DNA from: Verrucomicrobiaceae bacterium
GTDB lineage: Bacteria > Verrucomicrobiota > Verrucomicrobiia > Verrucomicrobiales > Verrucomicrobiaceae
Assembly: GCA_027487315.1 (NCBI GenBank)
Contig: JAIYDW010000213.1
Span: 1 to 52,989 of the forward strand
Direction of reading: 5' to 3'
Length of the DNA: 52,989 nucleotides
Part shown: positions 44,378 to 52,989 of the stretch, one piece after another
Layout of the letters: each line of letters starts with the position of its first letter
How positions within the stretch are numbered: position 1 is the stretch's first letter
Notes under the pieces: model-generated
Seen by the model: only the letters and a program-made list of their open reading frames with translations
The model's database searches: none
What the model was told of the DNA's origin: nothing
Made by a program: the position numbers and the translations under genes

Positions 44378-44406
44378 AAATCCAAACGCAGTGCCCCATC
44401 GGAGGA

Positions 44407-44421
44407 CGGGATTGCATCCCG
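44407..44421. terminator. hairpin between convergent genes
   Basis: CGGGAT-TGC-ATCCCG is a perfect 6-bp stem with a 3-nt loop, lying between the DUF1501 stop (44377) and the convergent methyltransferase stop (44427). Position suggests a bidirectional terminator; the flanking T tract is weak. Confidence 0.45.
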
Positions 44422-44426
44422 CCCAC

Positions 44427-45104
44427 TTAACTCACCCCTCCTTCACCCTCCCTCGTCACAAACATCACCATGACCCGTCGGCATTCCGGAAACCGCTGAA
44501 TGCTCAACTCCCCAGCAAGCCCCGAAAACAGAGCCTCAATCTGAGCGTCACTCAAAAAGTGTTTGATCACTCTGAAGCTCGATCCATCAGACAGCCGCCT
44601 CTCCTGAATCGGGTTCCCCTCATCATCGAAAACGCCCGTCACGGAATGCTCACCAGGCAGTTGATCAATGAACACGATTGGTGATCCCGAACGAACTCGA
44701 CGAATCGCTCCCGCGAGAAACCCCTCCATCCTGGAAAGCGGCACATGCGCCAACCAATCAACCGCCAAAATCGCATCAAATACCCCCGGTATCAGATCCA
44801 GACGATAAGCATCCGCCTGCAAAAGAGTGACTCGATCCAATGGCAACCGCTTCTTCCGGGCCTCATCAAGAGTCGATGGATTGTAATCCGTCGCCGTGAC
44901 CGAAACCGCTGTCTCCGCTGCAAACTGAGTCCAAAACCCCGGTCCACAAGCGATCTCTAAAACCTGCCTTCCACGCATCGCACTGCGGACACGCTCGATG
45001 ATCGGCAACAGAACACGAACCTTCGCCTCATCGTCATAGCCCATCGACGAATCATAAACAGAGGCCCTTTGCCCGTAATACCTCTGCATCTCTTCAATGA
45101 TCAT
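44427..45104 (-). CDS. class I SAM-dependent methyltransferase
   Basis: 225 residues. Motif I is VLEIACGPGFWTQF, followed by VTATDYNPSTLDEAR (motif II) and VTLLQADAYRLD and FDAILAVDWLAHVP (motifs III and IV). The N-terminal YYGQRASVYDSSMGYD is common in small-molecule methyltransferases. Substrate unknown. It lies just left of the integron array and on the same strand, but no attC site separates it from chromosomal DNA, so I treat it as backbone. It could be a cassette that has lost its attC. Confidence 0.9.
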   Translation of the reverse strand: MIIEEMQRYYGQRASVYDSSMGYDDEAKVRVLLPIIERVRSAMRGRQVLEIACGPGFWTQFAAETAVSVTATDYNPSTLDEARKKRLPLDRVTLLQADAYRLDLIPGVFDAILAVDWLAHVPLSRMEGFLAGAIRRVRSGSPIVFIDQLPGEHSVTGVFDDEGNPIQERRLSDGSSFRVIKHFLSDAQIEALFSGLAGELSIQRFPECRRVMVMFVTREGEGGVS

Positions 45105-45268
45105 AGTCTTTCAGCAATGAGCGACTCCACCCAAACCAGCACAGCAATCCTACCATCGCCACGTTAGCCTTGAAAAGACGAAAAGTCATATCGAACCAAG
45201 GCGTCGGCTAGGCATCGCCATGTAGCGGCCTCTTGAACGAAGCCCCTCTCCAAGAATGACGCAGCCTC

Positions 45269-45296
45269 AACGCCGAGGGTTGAGAAGTTCGGCGTT
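45269..45296 (-). terminator. hairpin downstream of the last cassette gene
   Basis: AACGCCGA (45269-45276) and TCGGCGTT (45289-45296) form a perfect 8-bp inverted repeat with a 12-nt loop, 10 nt past the stop of the last array gene. An alternative stem, CTCAAC/GTTGAG, overlaps it. No T tract. It may end array transcription or be an attC relic. Confidence 0.3.
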
Positions 45297-45305
45297 TAAG
45301 CGTTT

Positions 45306-45680
45306 TCAAGGCAGCACCACAGCCCCAATCGCATGATCGGTGCCGTCCGGATCCCAATACTTGACAGTGTAAGTCCCTGCGGAAACGCCCTTCACTTCAA
45401 CATAACCCGGATACCCACCCTTCCGGTTGGCACGGGTAAAGCTCGCAGTCACCAGAATGCCCGATCAGGGAACCTGAGTCCTGACGGCGTCAATCCATTG
45501 CCCTGAATGAACAATCTTCGTCTCAAAAGCAATCGGGATCCGATAGGCGCCTCCCCCGAGCGTAGCGGGAGCCCCAATAGCAATTCCACCAGCAGCAAAA
45601 AAGTCCCGTGACTTAGTCTCGGAACGTCCGGCCAGCGTGACAGTCGCCAGCAATAGCATTGTGCTGAGTCGGTGTTTCAT
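45306..45680 (-). pseudogene. cassette 13 gene, interrupted by in-frame TGA
   Basis: Starts MKHRLSTMLLLATVTLAG, a signal peptide, and reads GGIAIGAPATLGGGAYRIPI before a TGA at 45465-45467. The same frame continues without a gap (SGILVTASFTRANRKGGYPG, VEVKGVSAGTYTVKYWDPDG) to TGA at 45306-45308. The whole frame gives about 123 residues of a secreted beta-rich protein. The C-terminal part looks like a small carbohydrate-binding or Ig-like domain. It is the leftmost member of the cassette array. The only attC next to it is on its 5' side; no clear attC follows. Confidence 0.7.
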
Positions 45681-45684
45681 CTTT

Positions 45685-45787
45685 TTCTAACGCTCAAACT
45701 GAGCCGCGATCATAGCTGGCACGGAGTGTGTTGCTCACAGCACACTCGGTGACAGACATCATCGTTGGCTCTAGTGCTTTGTAAGGC
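45685..45787 (-). other. attC12, divergent type
   Basis: Read on the minus strand: R'' GCCTTAC, spacer AAAGCA, L'' CTAGAGCC, then L' GGCTCAG, spacer TTTGAGC, R' GTTAGAA. L'' has one extra A over the complement of L'. The sequence is unlike the ten-member family and closer to the general attC consensus at R' (GTTRRRY). It follows the VOC cassette gene. Confidence 0.65.
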
Positions 45788-46252
45788 TCATTTTTTCTTC
45801 ATCTGCACTGCTATGCGATTTCCTTCCGAGTCTTCAAATTCAGCAACAAATCCGTAATCTCCTACGTCGGTCTTGGGGTATAAAACCCTCCCGCCGCCTT
45901 TTGTCGCTCTACTTAAAGTGGAATCAATGTCCAATGTGGAAAAGTATATCCGTGATCCATCGAGAGAAGGCTTGTAACTATCTCCTTTTGCTAAAGCACC
46001 GGTGGCACCTTCGGTGCCAGCAGTATAAGGGAAAAGCGCCATTTCATTTCCGTCTATGCTCTGCTTTTCAAATTCAAATTCAAAAACCATGGAATAAAAT
46101 TCCATAGCCCTGTCTATCTCATTAACTGGTATCTCGCAGTATGATATGGGATTGTTCATGTTGTGTTTTTGTGACGATGCGCATCCAACTAGCGCCATTA
46201 TCCAAAGCGCAATTCCAGAAGCTCTGACTCGAGTTTTCATTTGGTTTTCCAT
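45788..46252 (-). CDS. cassette 12: VOC-fold (glyoxalase-like) lipoprotein
   Basis: 154 residues. The signal (RASGIALWIMALVGC) ends in a lipobox, so a lipoprotein is likely. The VOC pattern follows: ISYCEIPVNEIDRAMEFYSMVF, MALFPYTAGTEGATGAL, ISYCE-type strand repeated as IYFSTLDIDSTLSRATKGGGRVLYP and DYGFVAEFEDSEGNRIAVQ. VOC proteins include glyoxalases, dioxygenases and antibiotic-binding proteins; an exported lipid-anchored form is uncommon. An internal ATG at 46240 is an alternative start. Confidence 0.85.
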   Translation of the reverse strand: MENQMKTRVRASGIALWIMALVGCASSQKHNMNNPISYCEIPVNEIDRAMEFYSMVFEFEFEKQSIDGNEMALFPYTAGTEGATGALAKGDSYKPSLDGSRIYFSTLDIDSTLSRATKGGGRVLYPKTDVGDYGFVAEFEDSEGNRIAVQMKKK

Positions 46253-46259
46253 TCTGTAT

Positions 46260-46352
46260 CCCTAACGACTCAGTTCAGGCGACGGCGAGCGCAAGACGTT
46301 GCTGACACGACAGATAGCCTTCGAACCGTTGCCTGCATCCGTTTTGTCGCCC
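46260..46352 (-). other. attC11, family type A, degenerate
   Basis: Minus strand: R'' is shortened to GGGCGAC (one T lost from the GTTCGCCC of the plus strand). L'' CGGATGCAGGC is intact, but L' reads GCCTGAACTGAG instead of GCCTGATCCGAG, and R' is GTTAGGG. Pairing of both arms is damaged. Confidence 0.8.
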
Positions 46353-46375
46353 TTGGTTTTGTTGTTGGTGCTCCT

Positions 46376-46933
46376 TCATACCTTCTTCTGGGAAAGCAGT
46401 TGTGTGATGGGCTCGTTCGATGCTCGATGGCGATAGCCAATGCCGATCAGCCATAAAGCGATCACCGCCATAACAAGACAGAACCAAGGTCCCATTCTAC
46501 GGTCGCTCTCGACGGACTTGTTGTGGGCATCGATCAACAGAGCGTCACGGCCCTCAATCTTCATCGTAATGAACTCATAAAACTGCTGGTTCCGGAGCCA
46601 GTTCCTTCGTGGAGACGAAGACTCCGAAGCGGCTACTCCCAATACAACCGGTGCTCCCGGACCGAGTCGAGAAAGGGCATCTCTAGCGAACGCATGGGGA
46701 TACAGCTTCGAGAAGCATCGAAACGGCACAGACTGGTCAGATAATGAAATCTCCAGGCATGCATTCTTGCCGCTGAACTCACGAGCATCGATTACAGTGC
46801 CAGCAATCCGCGTAATGTCCGCGTCGGTCAGTAGAGGAGCGGTAATCCAATGGTATGCCAAGAATGACACTATCCCGAGACCAATAACGCCAAGGCCCAT
46901 TAATCGTTTTGGAGTGAAGGACGCTGGATTCAT
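46376..46933 (-). CDS. cassette 11: two-pass membrane protein, unknown
   Basis: 185 residues. Hydrophobic helices at residues ~12-30 (LMGLGVIGLGIVSFLAYHWI) and ~148-167 (WFCLVMAVIALWLIGIGY) bracket a soluble middle domain (DADITRIAGTVIDAREF, NACLEISLSDQSVPFRCFS, GAPVVLGVAASES). The middle domain resembles loop domains of small DUF-type inner membrane proteins but no family is assigned. The start lies 13 nt after the GTT of attC10. Confidence 0.8.
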   Translation of the reverse strand: MNPASFTPKRLMGLGVIGLGIVSFLAYHWITAPLLTDADITRIAGTVIDAREFSGKNACLEISLSDQSVPFRCFSKLYPHAFARDALSRLGPGAPVVLGVAASESSSPRRNWLRNQQFYEFITMKIEGRDALLIDAHNKSVESDRRMGPWFCLVMAVIALWLIGIGYRHRASNEPITQLLSQKKV

Positions 46934-46939
46934 TGGTTA

Positions 46940-47033
46940 GGCGAACGTCTCGGATCAGGCGACGGCGAGCGGGAAGCGTCGATGACACGACAGATGCCAT
47001 ACGAGCCGTTGCCTGCATCCGTTTTGTTCTGCC
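46940..47033 (-). other. attC10, family type B
   Basis: Minus strand: R'' GGCAGAAC, spacer AAAA, L'' CGGATGCAGGC, variable part containing CGTATGGCATCTGTCGTGTC, L' GCCTGATCCG, spacer AGAC, R' GTTCGCC. R'' carries an A-G change relative to the family. Confidence 0.88.
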
Positions 47034-47048
47034 TTGGGTTACGGTGAA

Positions 47049-47600
47049 TCATGTTTGTATTCTTGGTGGTTCTGGATGCCTCGTCAACCACTCCGCCGCC
47101 GTCAGGCGCACATGCTCGTCAAATGCCTTGATGGCGGCATCGCCGTAGAGACCATTGAAGCCGATCACGTTTGGAGAATCCATCATGTCTTCGTAACTCC
47201 AGTAAGCTCCGATGAAGTCGTGCATATCGTGAGAATCGCCGACATAGACGCTCGACTGATGAATCGAAACCTCGGTCCAGTAAACCTCCTTCATCAGTCG
47301 ATGAAGTTCGTTGTGTGGCGTGCTCTCGCCTCCAGTGATCCGCGTAGCATAATGGTGCAATAGAATCTCAACCGCTTCCTGACGGGTGGGTAACGCAAGC
47401 CCGATACGTCGCGCTGCTGCATCAAACAAGGCCTGAGACTCGTGCATAGTCGAGACAGGTTCCCAGGCAAGTTCGTGTAGTTCTGGTGCTTCGTGACCAC
47501 TCTCAATCAGCAATATGGCCAACCTCTGAAACTCAGTGGCGCTGAAGTGAAGCAACACACGACGAGCAAGCTGGACATCGAAAGGCAAGTCTGGCGTCAC
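47049..47600 (-). CDS. cassette 10: hypothetical soluble protein
   Basis: 183 residues, acidic and soluble, rich in His and Trp (ELHELAWEPVSTMHESQALF, LHRLMKEVYWTEVSIHQSS, DMHDFIGAYWSYEDMM). No signal peptide or membrane helix. No family recognised. The C-terminus ends 16 nt before attC10. Confidence 0.78.
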   Translation of the reverse strand: MTPDLPFDVQLARRVLLHFSATEFQRLAILLIESGHEAPELHELAWEPVSTMHESQALFDAAARRIGLALPTRQEAVEILLHHYATRITGGESTPHNELHRLMKEVYWTEVSIHQSSVYVGDSHDMHDFIGAYWSYEDMMDSPNVIGFNGLYGDAAIKAFDEHVRLTAAEWLTRHPEPPRIQT

Positions 47601-47617
47601 GATACGCTTCGTTGGTT

Positions 47618-47712
47618 GGCAGAACGACTCGGATCAGGCGACGGCGAGCGCAAGACGTTGCTGACACGACAGATAGCCTTCGAGCCGTTGCCTGCATCCG
47701 TTTTGTTCGCCC
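47618..47712 (-). other. attC9, family type A
   Basis: Minus strand: R'' GGGCGAAC, AAAA, L'' CGGATGCAGGC, type A middle (GCTATCTGTCGTGTCAGCAACGTC), L' GCCTGATCCG, AGTC, R' GTTCTGCC. The R' box has a C-T change relative to GTTCGCCC. Confidence 0.9.
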
Positions 47713-47779
47713 TTTTGTGGCCGTAGGTTAGCTGTGCTGTGGTCATGTTGGAATCCGTGCGCTTCGTCTCTGGATTTGG

Positions 47780-48145
47780 CTACCAAAATCTCCACCAAGG
47801 CTTCTTCGAGGTCGCCTGACTAGCGCAGTGCTGGCAATGCGGCTTGGGTGCCTCGCCGCGAAGCCATGCTGGAAGAATGGTGCCGCGTGGAACGGACCAA
47901 TCAAACTGATCGCCATCTGAAAAGATTGCCTCGCATGGACAGCCCTGTAGCGCCTCAGCCGTCAGGGATAACTCCTCCTCGGTCTCTGGTTGATGGTAAA
48001 TGTAGGCAACTCCCATCTCATCATCGCGGCGAAACACGGTTGGTGCCGTCTCTCTGCAAAGGTCACAGACCAAACACTGATCATCTACATAGAACTTCCC
48101 TGGAGCGTTCTGCGGGAGTCTGTTGCTGAACGTGTCTGCTGGCAT
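47780..48145 (-). CDS. cassette 9: single-cluster ferredoxin, [4Fe-4S] type
   Basis: 121 residues. Cluster ligands are CLVCDLC (first three Cys) and the Cys-Pro of ALQGCPCEAIF (fourth), the layout of small single-cluster ferredoxins. FYVDDQC and APTVFRRDDEMGVAYIY fill the usual places. A C-terminal extension carries CQHC and ends WWRFW. It is probably a soluble electron carrier; the partner is unknown. Redox proteins are unusual in cassettes. Confidence 0.88.
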   Translation of the reverse strand: MPADTFSNRLPQNAPGKFYVDDQCLVCDLCRETAPTVFRRDDEMGVAYIYHQPETEEELSLTAEALQGCPCEAIFSDGDQFDWSVPRGTILPAWLRGEAPKPHCQHCASQATSKKPWWRFW

Positions 48146-48163
48146 AGCGGTGCGCTGTTAGTT

Positions 48164-48258
48164 GGGCGAACGTTTCGGATCAGGCGACGGCGAGCGGGAG
48201 GCGTCGATGACACGACAGATGCCATACGAGCCGTTGCCTGCATCCGTTTTGTTCGCCC
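48164..48258 (-). other. attC8, family type B
   Basis: Minus strand: R'' GGGCGAAC, AAAA, L'' CGGATGCAGGC, type B middle (GTATGGCATCTGTCGTGTCA), L' GCCTGATCCG, AAAC, R' GTTCGCCC. Fully canonical for the family. Confidence 0.92.
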
Positions 48259-48280
48259 TTGGTTGGTGGTGATGGGGGTT

Positions 48281-48709
48281 TCATGTCGTGGCTGAAGTCT
48301 GACAATGCCTCGTCAAGCTGTGGGTCACCAAAAAGGCCGCGACTGCGGGGCTCGACAATATCGTGAGGACAACGCTGTAGTAGCAACTCCAGGCAACGAT
48401 GGCTGTCATAGGAAACTGTGAGCGGCAGACCTCGTAGATGAACCCAAGAATGACCGCCAAAGCTGCGGCGATCAGAGGACATGCGAGAGCAAACAGAAGG
48501 CGATGCCTGTCTGTAGAACGCCTAGAGATCCCGGCCACCGAACCCACCACAACAGCCCAGGTGATGAGCCACACGAATACAGTGACCTCGGGTCTGGTCC
48601 AGTCGGAGCGTCCAAAAATGCCAATGAACAACATCGGTGGAGCCAAGGAAAGTCCGCCACAGCACCAATCGATGGCTCGATAGCCTTGATGACCGTTAGC
48701 GCTGTTCAT
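48281..48709 (-). CDS. cassette 8: small multi-pass membrane protein
   Basis: 142 residues with four hydrophobic helices (LSLAPPMLFIGIFG, VTVFVWLITWAVVVGSVAG, LFALACPLIAAALAVILGF, SVVLTILSSPAVAAFLV). Short polar ends. No family recognised. Starts 31 nt after the GTT of attC7. Confidence 0.78.
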   Translation of the reverse strand: MNSANGHQGYRAIDWCCGGLSLAPPMLFIGIFGRSDWTRPEVTVFVWLITWAVVVGSVAGISRRSTDRHRLLFALACPLIAAALAVILGFIYEVCRSQFPMTAIVAWSCYYSVVLTILSSPAVAAFLVTHSLTRHCQTSATT

Positions 48710-48732
48710 AATCGGCGAAGGACTTGGTTGTT

Positions 48733-48827
48733 GGGCGAACGTCCCGGATCAGGCGACGGCGAGCGCAAGACGTTGCTGGCACGACAGATAGCCTTCGAGC
48801 CGTTGCCTGCATCCGTTTTGTTCGCCC
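48733..48827 (-). other. attC7, family type A
   Basis: Minus strand: R'' GGGCGAAC, AAAA, L'' CGGATGCAGGC, type A middle, L' GCCTGATCCG, GGAC, R' GTTCGCCC. One base of the middle differs (GCCAGC for GTCAGC). Confidence 0.92.
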
Positions 48828-48887
48828 TTGGTTGGTTCTGTGGCCTGATCTGCTGTGGTCATAGTGATGCCTGGTGTCTGGTCGTGA

Positions 48888-49304
48888 TCAACGCTGTGCA
48901 ATGAACCACTCCACCGTGGCTGAAAGGCAGTGTAGATCAGTCTCATCATAAATGTTCACGGTGATCTCAATACTCCCACGTCGCTTCGTGCTAATGTCGG
49001 CCAGAAGCTGCTCTCGTGCGGCGTCAGGGATGGCGGCACGAGCTGCAATTGAGCCGCTTGCAGGCTTGCGGAACTTGCAGTCGAAGCGCCGAACGACTGG
49101 GACGATGGAATCTGCGACGTGCCCGATGGCTCGAAGTAAAACCTCACCACTGGTGGCCTCAGCGAGAGACATCAATGCACTGGCGTGAACAGTCCCAAGG
49201 TGGTTCGTGTAACGGTCTCCAGAGGGAAGGCTAAGCACATAGCCCTCTCGCTTGCAGTGCTCGACGCCAATGAACTGGTTAAATGGGAGCTTTGTGATGT
49301 CCAT
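48888..49304 (-). CDS. cassette 7: hotdog-fold thioesterase-like protein
   Basis: 138 residues. GVEHCKREGYVLSLPSGDRYTNHLGTVHASALMSLAEATSGEVLL is the hotdog core with the conserved N/H...HASAL start of the central helix typical of DUF4442/PaaI-like acyl-CoA thioesterases. The strand FDCKFRKPASGSI and SIEITVNIYDETDL complete the fold. Likely hydrolyses an acyl-thioester; substrate unknown. Confidence 0.85.
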   Translation of the reverse strand: MDITKLPFNQFIGVEHCKREGYVLSLPSGDRYTNHLGTVHASALMSLAEATSGEVLLRAIGHVADSIVPVVRRFDCKFRKPASGSIAARAAIPDAAREQLLADISTKRRGSIEITVNIYDETDLHCLSATVEWFIAQR

Positions 49305-49350
49305 GACTTTGAATCGTTGATTTCTGATCGACGAGGGGCGCTTCGAGGTT

Positions 49351-49446
49351 GGGCGAACCGTCCAGGATCAGGCGACGGCGAGCGCAAGAGGTTGCTGACA
49401 CGACAGATAGCCTTCGAGCCGTTGCCTGCATCCGTTTTGTTCGCCC
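49351..49446 (-). other. attC6, family type A
   Basis: Minus strand: R'' GGGCGAAC, AAAA, L'' CGGATGCAGGC, type A middle (GCAACCTCTTGCGCTC), L' GCCTGATCCT, spacer GGACG, R' GTTCGCCC. L' has one change and the spacer one extra base. Confidence 0.9.
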
Positions 49447-49451
49447 CAGTG

Positions 49452-50027
49452 CTACTTTTTGGCGTCTGTCGTTTGTTGTGTCGCATCAGTCAGGCGAGAA
49501 AGGTAATAGTCACGGCAAGCTTGATCGAATGATGGAACACCCTCACGTTTCGGGTCTTTGATGTCGATCAAGTATGCGTTCTGCTGGCAGTAGAATAGCC
49601 CAACGCCATACTGCAAGGACAAGGAATCGGCGAGTTTTGGGCCGTCCGGCGAGGGCTCGTTCCACCCGTATGGAAAGTAGATGATGTTGGGCAGAGGTAT
49701 CTGGCCACCAAGACGAGGATCAGCAACCTTGGCGTCCGGTGGGAAGTCCCGATAGAAACCGGTCAGAAGCTTCTTCAGTGAGTCGATATCAAAGACTCTA
49801 TCCAGCCCATGAATCCGATAGGCTGGCTTATCTGGCTTGGTTCGGCGCATTACGTCATCACCATAGATGACAATGCTGTATGTCGATTCCGAGCGGAGAT
49901 GATGCTTCGGGGAGAGCTTAGAGTCAGGAGGGCGGACAACTGTGAACCCAAATGCTCTCGGATCTGGCTGTTGAGCCGAACAAGCGAGCGCACTTCCAAA
50001 GATCAAAGCGGGTAGCAAATATCGCAT
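49452..50027 (-). CDS. cassette 6: exported hypothetical protein
   Basis: 191 residues. Signal MRYLLPALIFGSALAC with a Cys at position 16 that could act as a lipobox. The mature chain (FGFTVVRPPDSKLSPKH, SIVIYGDDVMRRTKP, LPNIIYFPYGWNEPSPDG) is rich in Pro and aromatic residues. No family recognised. The stop is 5 nt before attC6's R'' box. Confidence 0.8.
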   Translation of the reverse strand: MRYLLPALIFGSALACSAQQPDPRAFGFTVVRPPDSKLSPKHHLRSESTYSIVIYGDDVMRRTKPDKPAYRIHGLDRVFDIDSLKKLLTGFYRDFPPDAKVADPRLGGQIPLPNIIYFPYGWNEPSPDGPKLADSLSLQYGVGLFYCQQNAYLIDIKDPKREGVPSFDQACRDYYLSRLTDATQQTTDAKK

Positions 50028-50047
50028 AGCAATTGACTCCGTTTGTT

Positions 50048-50142
50048 GGGCGAACGACCCGGATCAGGCGACGGCGAGCGGGAAGCGTCGATGACACGAC
50101 AGATGCCATACGAGCCGTTGCCTGCATCCGTTTTGTTAGCCC
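50048..50142 (-). other. attC5, family type B
   Basis: Minus strand: R'' GGGCTAAC, AAAA, L'' CGGATGCAGGC, type B middle, L' GCCTGATCCG, GGTC, R' GTTCGCCC. R'' has a G-T change that creates the stop codon of the preceding gene. Confidence 0.9.
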
Positions 50143-50678
50143 TTGGTGGCATCGCTGGTGATCTTGTTCGTCTTGAGGTCATACTCGAGGTGAAGCCGGA
50201 CTCCGGTGCCTGACTTCTTGGCGTGTGAACCACGGAGCGTAAACCGCAAAGTCTCACGGTCCGTCCAGGTCCAGTCATCAATACCTGTGTGGTAAAGCTC
50301 AGACATCTTGTGGTCTGATATCGTGTCTGAAAATTGCCATGCCATCCAGTCCAAACGCGACTCACAACGCAACACACGGCCAGCATCGTCAACCGTGTAG
50401 AGCCAAGCGATGTTGTCGCCTGAACCTGTCTTCTGAACATAGAGAATCCATCTTCCATCAGGTGACTTCTTGAAAAGGGGCTTCCAAGGTGGACCCGCTT
50501 CATCATCGTAGATCAATGTCACCGCAGGATGAGATGCGTCCGTAAACTTCACTTCCGCTCGCCAAGCTGCTTCGACCTGCGAAACATCTATGGCGTAGGC
50601 GGGCGGAGCAGAACAGGCTGTCGAAGCCGCAAAGACCTCAGTCAGGAAGATTGCTGAACTGGCAATGGCGAGGCGCAT
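50136..50678 (-). CDS. cassette 5: exported hypothetical protein
   Basis: 180 residues with a signal peptide (MRLAIASSAIFLTEVFAASTACSA). The domain (AVTLIYDDEAGPPWKPLFKK, SPDGRWILYVQKTGSGDNIA, DWTWTDRETLRFTLRGSHAK) has the look of a beta-propeller-like or TolB-like segment, weak. The TAA stop at 50136-50138 lies inside the R'' box of attC5. Starts 16 nt after the GTT of attC4. Confidence 0.8.
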   Translation of the reverse strand: MRLAIASSAIFLTEVFAASTACSAPPAYAIDVSQVEAAWRAEVKFTDASHPAVTLIYDDEAGPPWKPLFKKSPDGRWILYVQKTGSGDNIAWLYTVDDAGRVLRCESRLDWMAWQFSDTISDHKMSELYHTGIDDWTWTDRETLRFTLRGSHAKKSGTGVRLHLEYDLKTNKITSDATKG

Positions 50679-50687
50679 CGTTGTTTG

Positions 50688-50780
50688 GGCTAACGTTTCG
50701 GATCAGGCGACGGCGAGCGGGAGGCGTCGATGACACGACAGATGCCATACGAGCCGTTGCCTGCATCCGTTTTGTTCGGC
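50688..50780 (-). other. attC4, family type B
   Basis: Minus strand: R'' GCCGAAC, AAAA, L'' CGGATGCAGGC, type B middle, L' GCCTGATCCG, AAAC, R' GTTAGCC. R'' and R' no longer pair perfectly. Confidence 0.9.
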
Positions 50781-50787
50781 GTTGCGG

Positions 50788-51192
50788 TCATTCGGGAAGA
50801 TCGTTGAAGAATTGCCGCACATCATAATTGGCGATGGTGCGTGCTAAACTGAGTGGGCTGACGCCGTGCTTGTTCTGGCGATTTGGGTCGGCTCCGGCCT
50901 CGCGGAGTAGCTGAATAAGCTCACCGCGACCGTTCGAGTAGAACACCGCTTTGCATAGTGGGGTGTTGCCGTGCGTGTCTTGGGCTTCCACGGGAGCGCC
51001 GTGCGTGATGAGCAGAGCCGCCGCGCCAACAGAGTATTCTTGAGCCGCGAAGTGAAGAGGCGTCAAACCAGACTTATCAGCGGCACCCGCAGCAAAACCC
51101 GCTTCGAGCAAGTGTTGCACCTCCGCAATGTTGTTCTCCAGCGCGGCATAATGCAGAGCTGTCCTTCCATCACGGTCAATTGAAGTCGTCAT
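50788..51192 (-). CDS. cassette 4: ankyrin-repeat protein
   Basis: 134 residues from the ATG at 51192 (MTTSIDRDGRTALHYAALE). Three to four ankyrin repeats are plain: GRTALHYAALENNIAEVQHLLEAG, GLTPLHFAAQEYSVGAAALLITHG, GNTPLCKAVFYSNGRGELIQLLREAG, then GVSPLSLARTIANY. The frame stays open back into attC3 to 51291, which would add about 33 residues of attC-coded peptide; this is unlikely to be made. It presumably mediates protein-protein contacts. Confidence 0.88.
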   Translation of the reverse strand: MTTSIDRDGRTALHYAALENNIAEVQHLLEAGFAAGAADKSGLTPLHFAAQEYSVGAAALLITHGAPVEAQDTHGNTPLCKAVFYSNGRGELIQLLREAGADPNRQNKHGVSPLSLARTIANYDVRQFFNDLPE

Positions 51193-51212
51193 TTTGGAAA
51201 GCGGGTAGTATC

Positions 51213-51305
51213 GCCGAACGTCTCGGATCAGGCGACGGCGAGCGCAAGACGTTGCTGACACGACAGATAGCCTTCGAGCCGTTGCCTGCATCCGTTTTGT
51301 TCGGC
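51213..51305 (-). other. attC3, family type A
   Basis: Minus strand: R'' GCCGAAC, AAAA, L'' CGGATGCAGGC, type A middle, L' GCCTGATCCG, AGAC, R' GTTCGGC. R'' and R' have co-varied (C-G swapped) and still pair perfectly. Confidence 0.93.
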
Positions 51306-51333
51306 CTTGGCGGGTGTTGGTTCGTGTGGATCA

Positions 51334-51831
51334 TCATGCATTTCGACTCAGAAAGGGCAATGCAGCAAAGAAAGCGGCAGCAAGATAGCCAGTCTGCCTG
51401 ATCGGCCAGTCACCAAACCACTCATTTCTGAGTCCAAGCGCCATCAGAACACAGCACCCTCCCAGAAGGACTCCAACAACGTAGTAAACAAAATGAAGTC
51501 GCGGTCTCCCGATGGTCAAATGTCGGCGACAAGCCCGAATGGCAAGCATCGCGAATTGGGCAAGATACAGCACCGAGATAGACAACACGACCATTGGCAG
51601 CCACATCTGCAAGACGACTTGCCACAGAGCACGACTATCGAGTGGGTAGCCATGAAAGTTCTGCCAGACTCCCCTGTGCACGTGTCCCGGAGGAAGATGC
51701 CATGATGCGAATCGTCGGTATTCCTCGTCAGCAAGTGAAAAGTAGAAGAGTGCGCAGATGCAAACAAAAAGCGCCGCGACCAAAATAGCTGCGGCGATCC
51801 CAAAGAGCCGAATCTTCGATATTGCAATCAT
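51334..51831 (-). CDS. cassette 3: four-pass membrane protein, unknown
   Basis: 165 residues from the ATG at 51831 (MIAISKIRLFGIAAAILVAALFV). Four hydrophobic helices (first near 9-30, then MVVLSISVLYLAQFAMLAI, YYVVGVLLGGCCVLMAL, GYLAAAFFAALPFL). A soluble loop between helices 1 and 2 contains RRFASWHLPPGHVHRGVWQNFHGYP. No family recognised. Lies between the divergent attC2 and attC3. Confidence 0.78.
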   Translation of the reverse strand: MIAISKIRLFGIAAAILVAALFVCICALFYFSLADEEYRRFASWHLPPGHVHRGVWQNFHGYPLDSRALWQVVLQMWLPMVVLSISVLYLAQFAMLAIRACRRHLTIGRPRLHFVYYVVGVLLGGCCVLMALGLRNEWFGDWPIRQTGYLAAAFFAALPFLSRNA

Positions 51832-51851
51832 CACGCTGGACTCCGCTTCTT

Positions 51852-51977
51852 GGCCGAACGTCAAAGGCCTGCCACCCGCTACCGGGGGCGCACCTCCGCC
51901 TCGGGTTTAGGTTTATCTTTACCCTCCGACTTCAACTGCGGGGCGGTAGCGGGTTGGTCAGCGCCGCCTTGTTCGCT
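51852..51977 (-). other. attC2, divergent type, overlaps the cassette 2 gene end
   Basis: Minus strand: R'' AGCGAAC, then L'' CCAACCCGCTACCG, loop, L' CGGTAGCGGGTGGC, spacer, R' GTTCGGC. L'' has one extra A over the complement of L'. AAGGC beside R'' can also pair with GCCTT before R'. The TAG stop of the cassette 2 gene lies in L'. Confidence 0.6.
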
Positions 51978-52463
51978 TATTGTTTTGAAGGCTGGGTTTC
52001 GAGCGAGTTCTTCCTGAAAAAGCTCGGCATAAATCCCTTTTAGCCGGTCGCAACTCCAGTGCGTCCCAATATCAAGAATCATCTTGTTGTTCTTCTTCTG
52101 CATGCCCTCGTGTGAAAAGAAAAAATACTCCAACTTTCCCGGAACAGTGGTGCGAAAATGGGAAAACAGCTTCGGAGAGTCCTCAATAAGGTATGAAAAC
52201 TCCAATTGAGTTCCGACGGTTAAATTGCCTTTGTGCACGCTCGCGATGACCGCTCTCTTCACAATTTCGCCCTTCCACTCCTCTTTTGTTGGAGGAATCC
52301 ACTCCTGCTCATAGATGCAGATAGTCGCTACTGAGTCGCTTTCGTCGATACGCGCGAGGATATTCTCTCTCATTGCGGCACGAAATTCAGGATCCTTCTC
52401 GTCCTGGCCGCTTGCGGACAATACGAAGGCAGCTAACACGGCGATTGATCCAGTAATATTCAT
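51879..52463 (-). CDS. cassette 2: secreted hypothetical protein
   Basis: 194 residues with a signal peptide (MNITGSIAVLAAFVLSASG). The mature part (DESDSVATICIYEQEWIPP, VKRAVIASVHKGNLTVGTQLEFSYLIED, TTVPGKLEYFFFSHEGM) looks beta-rich, with a disordered Lys/Pro/Glu-rich end encoded by the attC2 L'' to L' region. No family recognised. Starts 11 nt after the GTT of attC1. Confidence 0.8.
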   Translation of the reverse strand: MNITGSIAVLAAFVLSASGQDEKDPEFRAAMRENILARIDESDSVATICIYEQEWIPPTKEEWKGEIVKRAVIASVHKGNLTVGTQLEFSYLIEDSPKLFSHFRTTVPGKLEYFFFSHEGMQKKNNKMILDIGTHWSCDRLKGIYAELFQEELARNPAFKTISEQGGADQPATAPQLKSEGKDKPKPEAEVRPR

Positions 52464-52469
52464 TTTCTA

Positions 52470-52562
52470 GCGAACGTCTCGGATCAGGCGACGGCGAGCG
52501 CAAGACGTTGCTGACACGACAGATAGCCTTCGAGCCGTTGCCTGCATCCGTTTTGTTCGCCC
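52470..52562 (-). other. attC1, family type A
   Basis: Minus strand: R'' GGGCGAAC, AAAA, L'' CGGATGCAGGC with the extrahelical G, type A middle, L' GCCTGATCCG, AGAC, R' GTTCGCT. The R' box has lost its last pairing bases. Confidence 0.92.
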
Positions 52563-52583
52563 TTGGTTGTGGATGGTCGCTGC

Positions 52584-52989
52584 TCATGCTGGTGAAAATG
52601 GAGTAGTGTCCAAGTGACTGGCTGAAAAGGTCTGGATGAGGCGAAGACAACGATCTGAAACGACCAACCCGGATGAAGACTGTCCAAAATCATGCTCACC
52701 AGCAAGTCCTGAAATCCGAATCCACCTGAACTCAGGAAGCTGCCGATCCCCGTAAATGTCCGTGAACTGCTCAGATCGTGATACCTCAACATCTGCAACG
52801 GAGAAGCCAGTGAGTCCGGCTGAAACAAAGCTCTCTGTTAGTCCGCGTGTGGCGATGAAACACGGAAAGCTCTCCAATAGATCATCTCCCAGCCAACCAT
52901 CAAAGACGTAGTGCAATCGTGAAACAACGGGCGGATGAACCGCTGTGTCGATCTGTGTATTCGGCCCTAGACCGCCTGCCACCTCTGGC
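52584..52989 (-). CDS. cassette 1 gene, 5'-truncated by window edge
   Basis: The frame is open to the right window edge (the first visible codons read E-V-A-G-G-L); the GTG at 52982 need not be the start. About 134 residues are visible (VHPPVVSRLHYVFDGWLGDD, LLESFPCFIATRGL, FTDIYGDRQLPEFRWIRISG). No membrane helix is seen. No family recognised; the ADVEVS...RWIRISG pattern suggests a small alpha/beta protein. Ends 21 nt before attC1. Confidence 0.75.
   Translation of the reverse strand, partial: PEVAGGLGPNTQIDTAVHPPVVSRLHYVFDGWLGDDLLESFPCFIATRGLTESFVSAGLTGFSVADVEVSRSEQFTDIYGDRQLPEFRWIRISGLAGEHDFGQSSSGLVVSDRCLRLIQTFSASHLDTTPFSPA

Follow-up and report, generated by a model that had tools for sequence, protein, structure and literature searches.

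A partial chromosomal integron cassette array at the right end of a Verrucomicrobiaceae contig

Integron cassette arrays let bacteria capture and swap genes. At the right end of a 52,989-nt contig stretch from a Verrucomicrobiaceae bacterium (hereafter the window), small genes alternate with near-identical repeats up to the contig end at position 52,989, which raises the question of whether these genes and repeats constitute such an array. In our view the window ends within a chromosomal integron cassette array (probability about 0.97), and the integron interpretation proposed in an initial annotation of the DNA is supported. Each unit is a small gene with its own attC site. An IntI-family tyrosine recombinase would recognise the folded bottom strand of attC (the + strand of the window) and cut it at the AAC/GTT core, and a cassette could then be excised as a circle, or a circle inserted, either into attI or into another attC. 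In this way the array would grow and be reshuffled, leaving the flanking chromosome unchanged.

Ten near-identical sites of about 95 nt (93-96 nt) are located between positions 46260 and 52562, and their core 21-mer is matched ten times in the window and not once in 100 shuffles. The mean column identity of the ten aligned sites is 91%, with differences in the outer R boxes, in the spacer and in the terminal hairpin, which occurs as two alleles (types A and B). On the + strand a site consists of GGGCGAAC, a 4-nt spacer, CGGAT-CAGGCGACGGC, a 38-nt terminal hairpin, GCCGTTGCCTG-C-ATCCG, TTTT and GTTCGCCC. The 3' arm on this strand is CCTG-C-ATCC, opposite GGAT-CAGG, and each of the ten sites has an extra unpaired C in its L'' arm; L-box mismatches are additionally present in site 1. 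The sites fold as attC: the R boxes pair, an internal loop of 4 nt follows, the L boxes pair except for an extrahelical L'' base, and the hairpin closes the structure. Five single sites were folded as single-stranded DNA; the + (bottom) strand gave z values from -3.6 to -5.1 and was more stable than the minus strand in 5/5 cases. Together, the unpaired C in L'' and the greater stability of the + strand indicate the bottom-strand layout of attC. These results agree with what the initial annotation had described, namely ten sites of about 93-96 bp with the extra base always in L'' and two divergent sites, and the bottom-strand folding it had proposed as a check came out as it expected. Of the two divergent sites, one has a longer terminal hairpin and one is degenerate.

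The strongest and decisive test is provided by the R boxes. A moving cassette is a circle in which R'' at the 3' end pairs with the bases of its own 5' end, so in an array the partner of R'' must lie on the other side of the gene, at the next site. Within the window, R'' GTTCTGCC of attC 2 pairs with R' GGCAGAAC of attC 3, R'' GTTAGCCC of attC 7 with R' GGGCTAAC of attC 8, R'' GTTCGGCG of attC 8 with R' CGCCGAAC of attC 9, and R'' GTTCGGCC of attC 9 with R' GGCCGAAC of the divergent site at 51852. Complementarity of the outer five bases was scored for 76 neighbouring site pairs (24 array loci, eight genomes). It was perfect across the gene in 52/76 pairs and within the site in 14/76, and the cross-gene score was reached by 0/10,000 shuffles. 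The boxes thus behave as the two sides of a cassette circle cut inside GTT. R'' and R' of the degenerate leftmost site are just partly complementary to the neighbouring site.

An integrase is also available. The host genome, a 5.87 Mb draft in 256 contigs, encodes an integron integrase beside mfd on contig C139 (C139:6215-7231), which scores 368 bits with TIGR02249, above the curated cut-off. It can be aligned to the Vibrio cholerae integron integrase (VchIntIA, structure 2A3V) over residues 18-336, and the alignment retains the IntI-specific insert and the R, HxxR, H and Y motifs, which we take to be the catalytic ones. A window-type attC is located upstream of this intI on the expected strand (C139:11974-12068). 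Scanning with a covariance model made solely from the ten window sites has found such sites upstream of intI in the Verrucomicrobiales records L054 and L055, on the intI-bearing contigs G012:C16, G018:C368 and G017:C30, and in the closed genome G014, and their polarity relative to intI is identical in all these genomes. The covariance search suggested by the initial annotation therefore yielded the same site beside intI, with integron polarity, in the host and its relatives. L057 (L057:9477-11000) was excluded from these examples: its truncated intI match covers the C-terminal third only, and an attC stands where the 5' part of the gene is expected, as if a cassette or a deletion had replaced that part.

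A conserved 60-nt stretch that ends exactly at AAC lies upstream of the C139 intI and of the intI genes of five relatives, six loci in all; it is seen there and not at the window array. The mean pairwise identity of the six loci is 79% on the intI side of AAC but 32% on the cassette side, and we read this pattern as attI followed by the first cassette. The search for intI and attI, also proposed earlier, was thus successful, although on another contig than that of the window array. The C139-type IntI presumably acts on the window array, in trans or in cis, and recombination at the array is likely to be still ongoing.

Several other integrase genes were encountered. A second integron of the host genome on contig C7 (L044:1-3101) encodes an IntI above the integron-integrase cut-off with an N-terminal extension, and its cassettes carry a different, 111-nt attC family, to which single sites on C172 and C112 are related. 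On host contig C206 (151-4063, L043) a sub-cut-off integron-integrase-like protein is encoded next to genes for primase-like and helicase-like proteins, which may belong to a phage or plasmid. Two intI homologues beside attC arrays, G017:C30:21703-22218 and G002:C36:2962-3570, are each interrupted by a TAG stop codon in frame, which suggests that some platforms may be decaying.

Comparison with relatives shows where the variable block begins. Genome G001 of the same genus matches the window at 96% identity along a 3,014-base stretch that stops at position 44,378, where a DUF1501 gene ends; past this point it carries another cassette array, oriented as in the window. As the flank is shared and the arrays differ, the place of the array is fixed in this genus while its content varies. 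The same DUF1501 locus is present without any attC in five genomes from two other genera. The divergence from G001 also means that the variable block begins at 44,378 and not at 45,685, where the initial annotation had placed the array start. The additional left part contains a methyltransferase gene, and homologous genes in G010 and G021, from another genus, have an attC directly upstream. At another array, in G018, two Acido-Lenti-1 RNA matches in opposite orientations (L082:2676-2875) directly adjoin the array end.

Could the repeats be something other than attC? Near-identical palindromic hairpins at several loci of the host genome might suggest a dispersed family of repetitive extragenic palindromic (REP) or miniature inverted-repeat transposable element (MITE)-like repeats lying between genes by chance, with no integron involved. 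However, there are just a few single sites outside the arrays, close to the confinement to cassette clusters that the initial annotation had expected, gene orientation is fixed, the outer boxes have their partners on the other side of the gene and not in the same repeat, and several genomes have the sites upstream of intI, always in one polarity and with attI present. The cross-gene pairing and the intI association refute such a family, and we leave it almost no weight. It is just as improbable that the region is a toxin-antitoxin, phage or defence island in which the repeats act as regulatory RNAs. The small genes are mostly of unknown function, the repeats fold well and the ankyrin protein weakly matches the PADLOC candidate PDC-M72A, but the other tested genes have no defence matches, an Rfam search of the window gave 0 matches, and pairing at the DNA level across genes is unexpected for RNA elements. 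Since cross-gene pairing is predicted by no repeat or RNA-element explanation, both were rejected.

Some observations weigh against an integron cassette array. The R boxes, GGCGAAC/GTTCGCC, share with the classical RYYYAAC/GTTRRRY just the AAC/GTT core, as the initial annotation had remarked, and so depart from the consensus; this consensus is a tendency and not a defining rule, and IntI requires the fold and the core sequence. A clear attC is lacking at the leftmost site and in the methyltransferase region, and no recombination was observed. Finally, there is no intI on the 53-kb contig of the window, and the array runs off its end.

The last point concerns the type of array. Clusters of attC sites without integron integrase are known as CALIN (PMC9024848, PMC8618304), for which at least two attC sites and no nearby intI are required, and this holds within the 53-kb contig. 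We lean towards the window array being a CALIN rather than joined to intI. The likeness extends to the attC clusters of host contig C20 and of genome G008 (several contigs, no matching IntI), which likewise have no intI nearby; the difference is that the window array reaches the contig end, which leaves the absence of intI unproven, and intI genes of the host were found on other contigs of the draft assembly. The array might instead be the distal end of the C139 integron, connected in cis and split by the assembly, which we regard as possible but rather doubtful. C139 carries the same attC family and likewise ends near an array, contigs C154, C158 and C191 resemble array fragments, and the polarity is compatible with the C139 integron. 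On the other hand, the array within contig C20 shows that the same host does carry an intI-less array, and the DUF1501 locus and mfd are 0.9 Mb (G005) and 2.2 Mb (G014) apart in related complete genomes and on separate contigs in five other relatives, although DUF1501 has paralogues and this synteny argument is weak, suggestive only.

Table 1. Features of the variable block, with positions in the window
Feature	Position	Strand	Basis or remark
Left part of variable block	44378..45684		No recognisable attC; G001 comparison
Methyltransferase gene	44427-45104	-	Left part of variable block
Small open reading frame (ORF)	45465-45680	-	Left part of variable block
Degenerate terminal attC-like hairpin	45685..45787	+	DNA fold z -3.7; assigned by eye
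Glyoxalase-superfamily protein, 154 aa	45788..46252	-	Pfam PF00903, E 4.4e-9
attC 1	46260..46352	+	R'' one T short; covariance score 89 bits
Cassette gene, 185 aa, without family	46376..46933	-	Pfam search
attC 2	46939..47033	+	Hairpin type B
Cassette gene, 183 aa, without family	47049..47600	-	Pfam search
attC 3	47618..47712	+	Hairpin type A
4Fe-4S ferredoxin-like, 121 aa	47780..48145	-	Pfam Fer4_13, E 6e-18
attC 4	48164..48258	+	Hairpin type B
Probable membrane protein, 142 aa	48281..48709	-	Sub-threshold DUF420 match at most
attC 5	48733..48827	+	Hairpin type A
DUF4442 / hot-dog thioesterase, 138 aa	48888..49304	-	Pfam PF14539, E 4.2e-14
attC 6	49351..49446	+	Hairpin type A; one additional base after R'
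Cassette gene, 191 aa, without family	49452..50027	-	Pfam search
attC 7	50048..50142	+	Hairpin type B
Cassette gene, 180 aa, without family	50136..50678	-	Pfam search
attC 8	50687..50781	+	Hairpin type B
Ankyrin-repeat protein, 134 aa	50788..51192	-	Pfam Ank_2, E 6e-20
attC 9	51212..51306	+	Hairpin type A
Probable membrane protein, ~165 aa from internal ATG	51334..51831	-	ORF list has 51334-51864 from TTG
Divergent attC	51852..51978	+	Terminal hairpin longer; fold z -2.7
Cassette gene, 194 aa, without family	51879..52463	-	Pfam search
attC 10	52468..52562	+	Hairpin type A
Cassette gene truncated by contig end	52584..52988	-	ORF list

Twelve small genes lie among the sites, all of them on the minus strand, the last one cut by the contig end (Table 1). 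The single direction and the gene-attC-gene-attC polarity given by the initial annotation hold, with all sites in one polarity, while its count of thirteen genes differs from ours according to whether the small ORF left of the first site is included. Pfam domains are clear in four genes (glyoxalase-superfamily, 4Fe-4S ferredoxin, DUF4442/thioesterase-like and ankyrin-repeat), and the remaining cassette genes gave no Pfam match passing the family cut-off. No strong DNA match of the window cassette genes was found in 37 relatives: the matches listed at 1e-30 or better span about 90-140 bases and fall on attC sites. Sharing or exchange of cassettes is therefore not directly shown.

The attC family itself is widespread among close relatives. 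Of 38 close genomes, that of the window among them, 25 contain it (E <= 0.01), but at a stricter cut-off it is present in just 10/289 genomes sampled across the phylum. Arrays occupy many loci per genome; plasmid and phage collections contained no similar site. Two IMG/VR viral contigs have a window-type attC at >100 bits (L131:854-948 and L132:4088-4182) and may represent cassette-bearing viruses or misfiled bacterial DNA. One window-type attC (101 bits) in another family of the same class, G158:C29:13097-13191, suggests transfer.

The attC core of about 79 nt has 90-100% identity between the window sites and those of G011, G012 and G013, with one 100% pair in each, whereas mfd identity to the same three genomes, which belong to other genera, is merely 73-75%. 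One terminal-hairpin sequence is common to six genomes letter for letter, and the second allele to four. Conserved attC families are well known in chromosomal integrons, where the terminal hairpin is normally variable. Either cassette exchange across genera or strict sequence recognition would explain this uniformity, and the data do not decide between them. We suggest, tentatively and at somewhat less than even odds, that Verrucomicrobiaceae share one cassette pool in which a single base-identical attC family, the hairpin with its two alleles included, serves many dispersed arrays per genome.

A flank common to several arrays, ATATCAAC, was considered as a conserved insertion target and rejected, as it is the terminus of an IS110/IS1111-family element lodged in attC. 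In this element (records L088:1069-2820, L089, L090 and L091:4605-6234) the transposase gene is followed by a conserved structured noncoding stretch of about 300 nt (z -4.1), which abuts the R' half of attC. The element is found next to attC in G012 (three copies) and G017, and in G006 two copies of the noncoding stretch have this position as well. The whole resembles IS1111-attC-type elements, with a seekRNA/bridge-RNA region that would target the window attC family (PMC11187229).

The array is similar to the sedentary chromosomal integrons of Vibrio and Xanthomonas, with their V. cholerae repeats (VCR) and other attC families, in its repeated near-identical attC sites, the one-direction, mostly uncharacterised genes, the IntI with attI and the cassette-level turnover at a fixed chromosomal place. 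It differs in its Verrucomicrobiaceae host, the off-consensus R boxes, the presence of several arrays per genome and an attC that is identical across genera, terminal hairpin included. Integrons in Verrucomicrobiota are already known, as the phylum is among those listed with integrons (PMC8618304), and it is the cross-genus attC uniformity and the many loci per genome that are less ordinary. The main text of a study of attC models for eleven taxa names no Verrucomicrobia model (PMC8352920), and no description of the window attC family was found in the literature searched.

Overall, the locus adds a documented attC family, attI and IntI for a phylum whose integrons are listed but hardly described. 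If Verrucomicrobiaceae do share one cassette pool, either cassettes would have to travel often between genera or IntI would have to read the attC sequence more strictly than known integrases do. The contrast between attC and mfd conservation makes this choice, cassette exchange or sequence-specific recognition, a testable one, and it is a standing question for chromosomal integrons.

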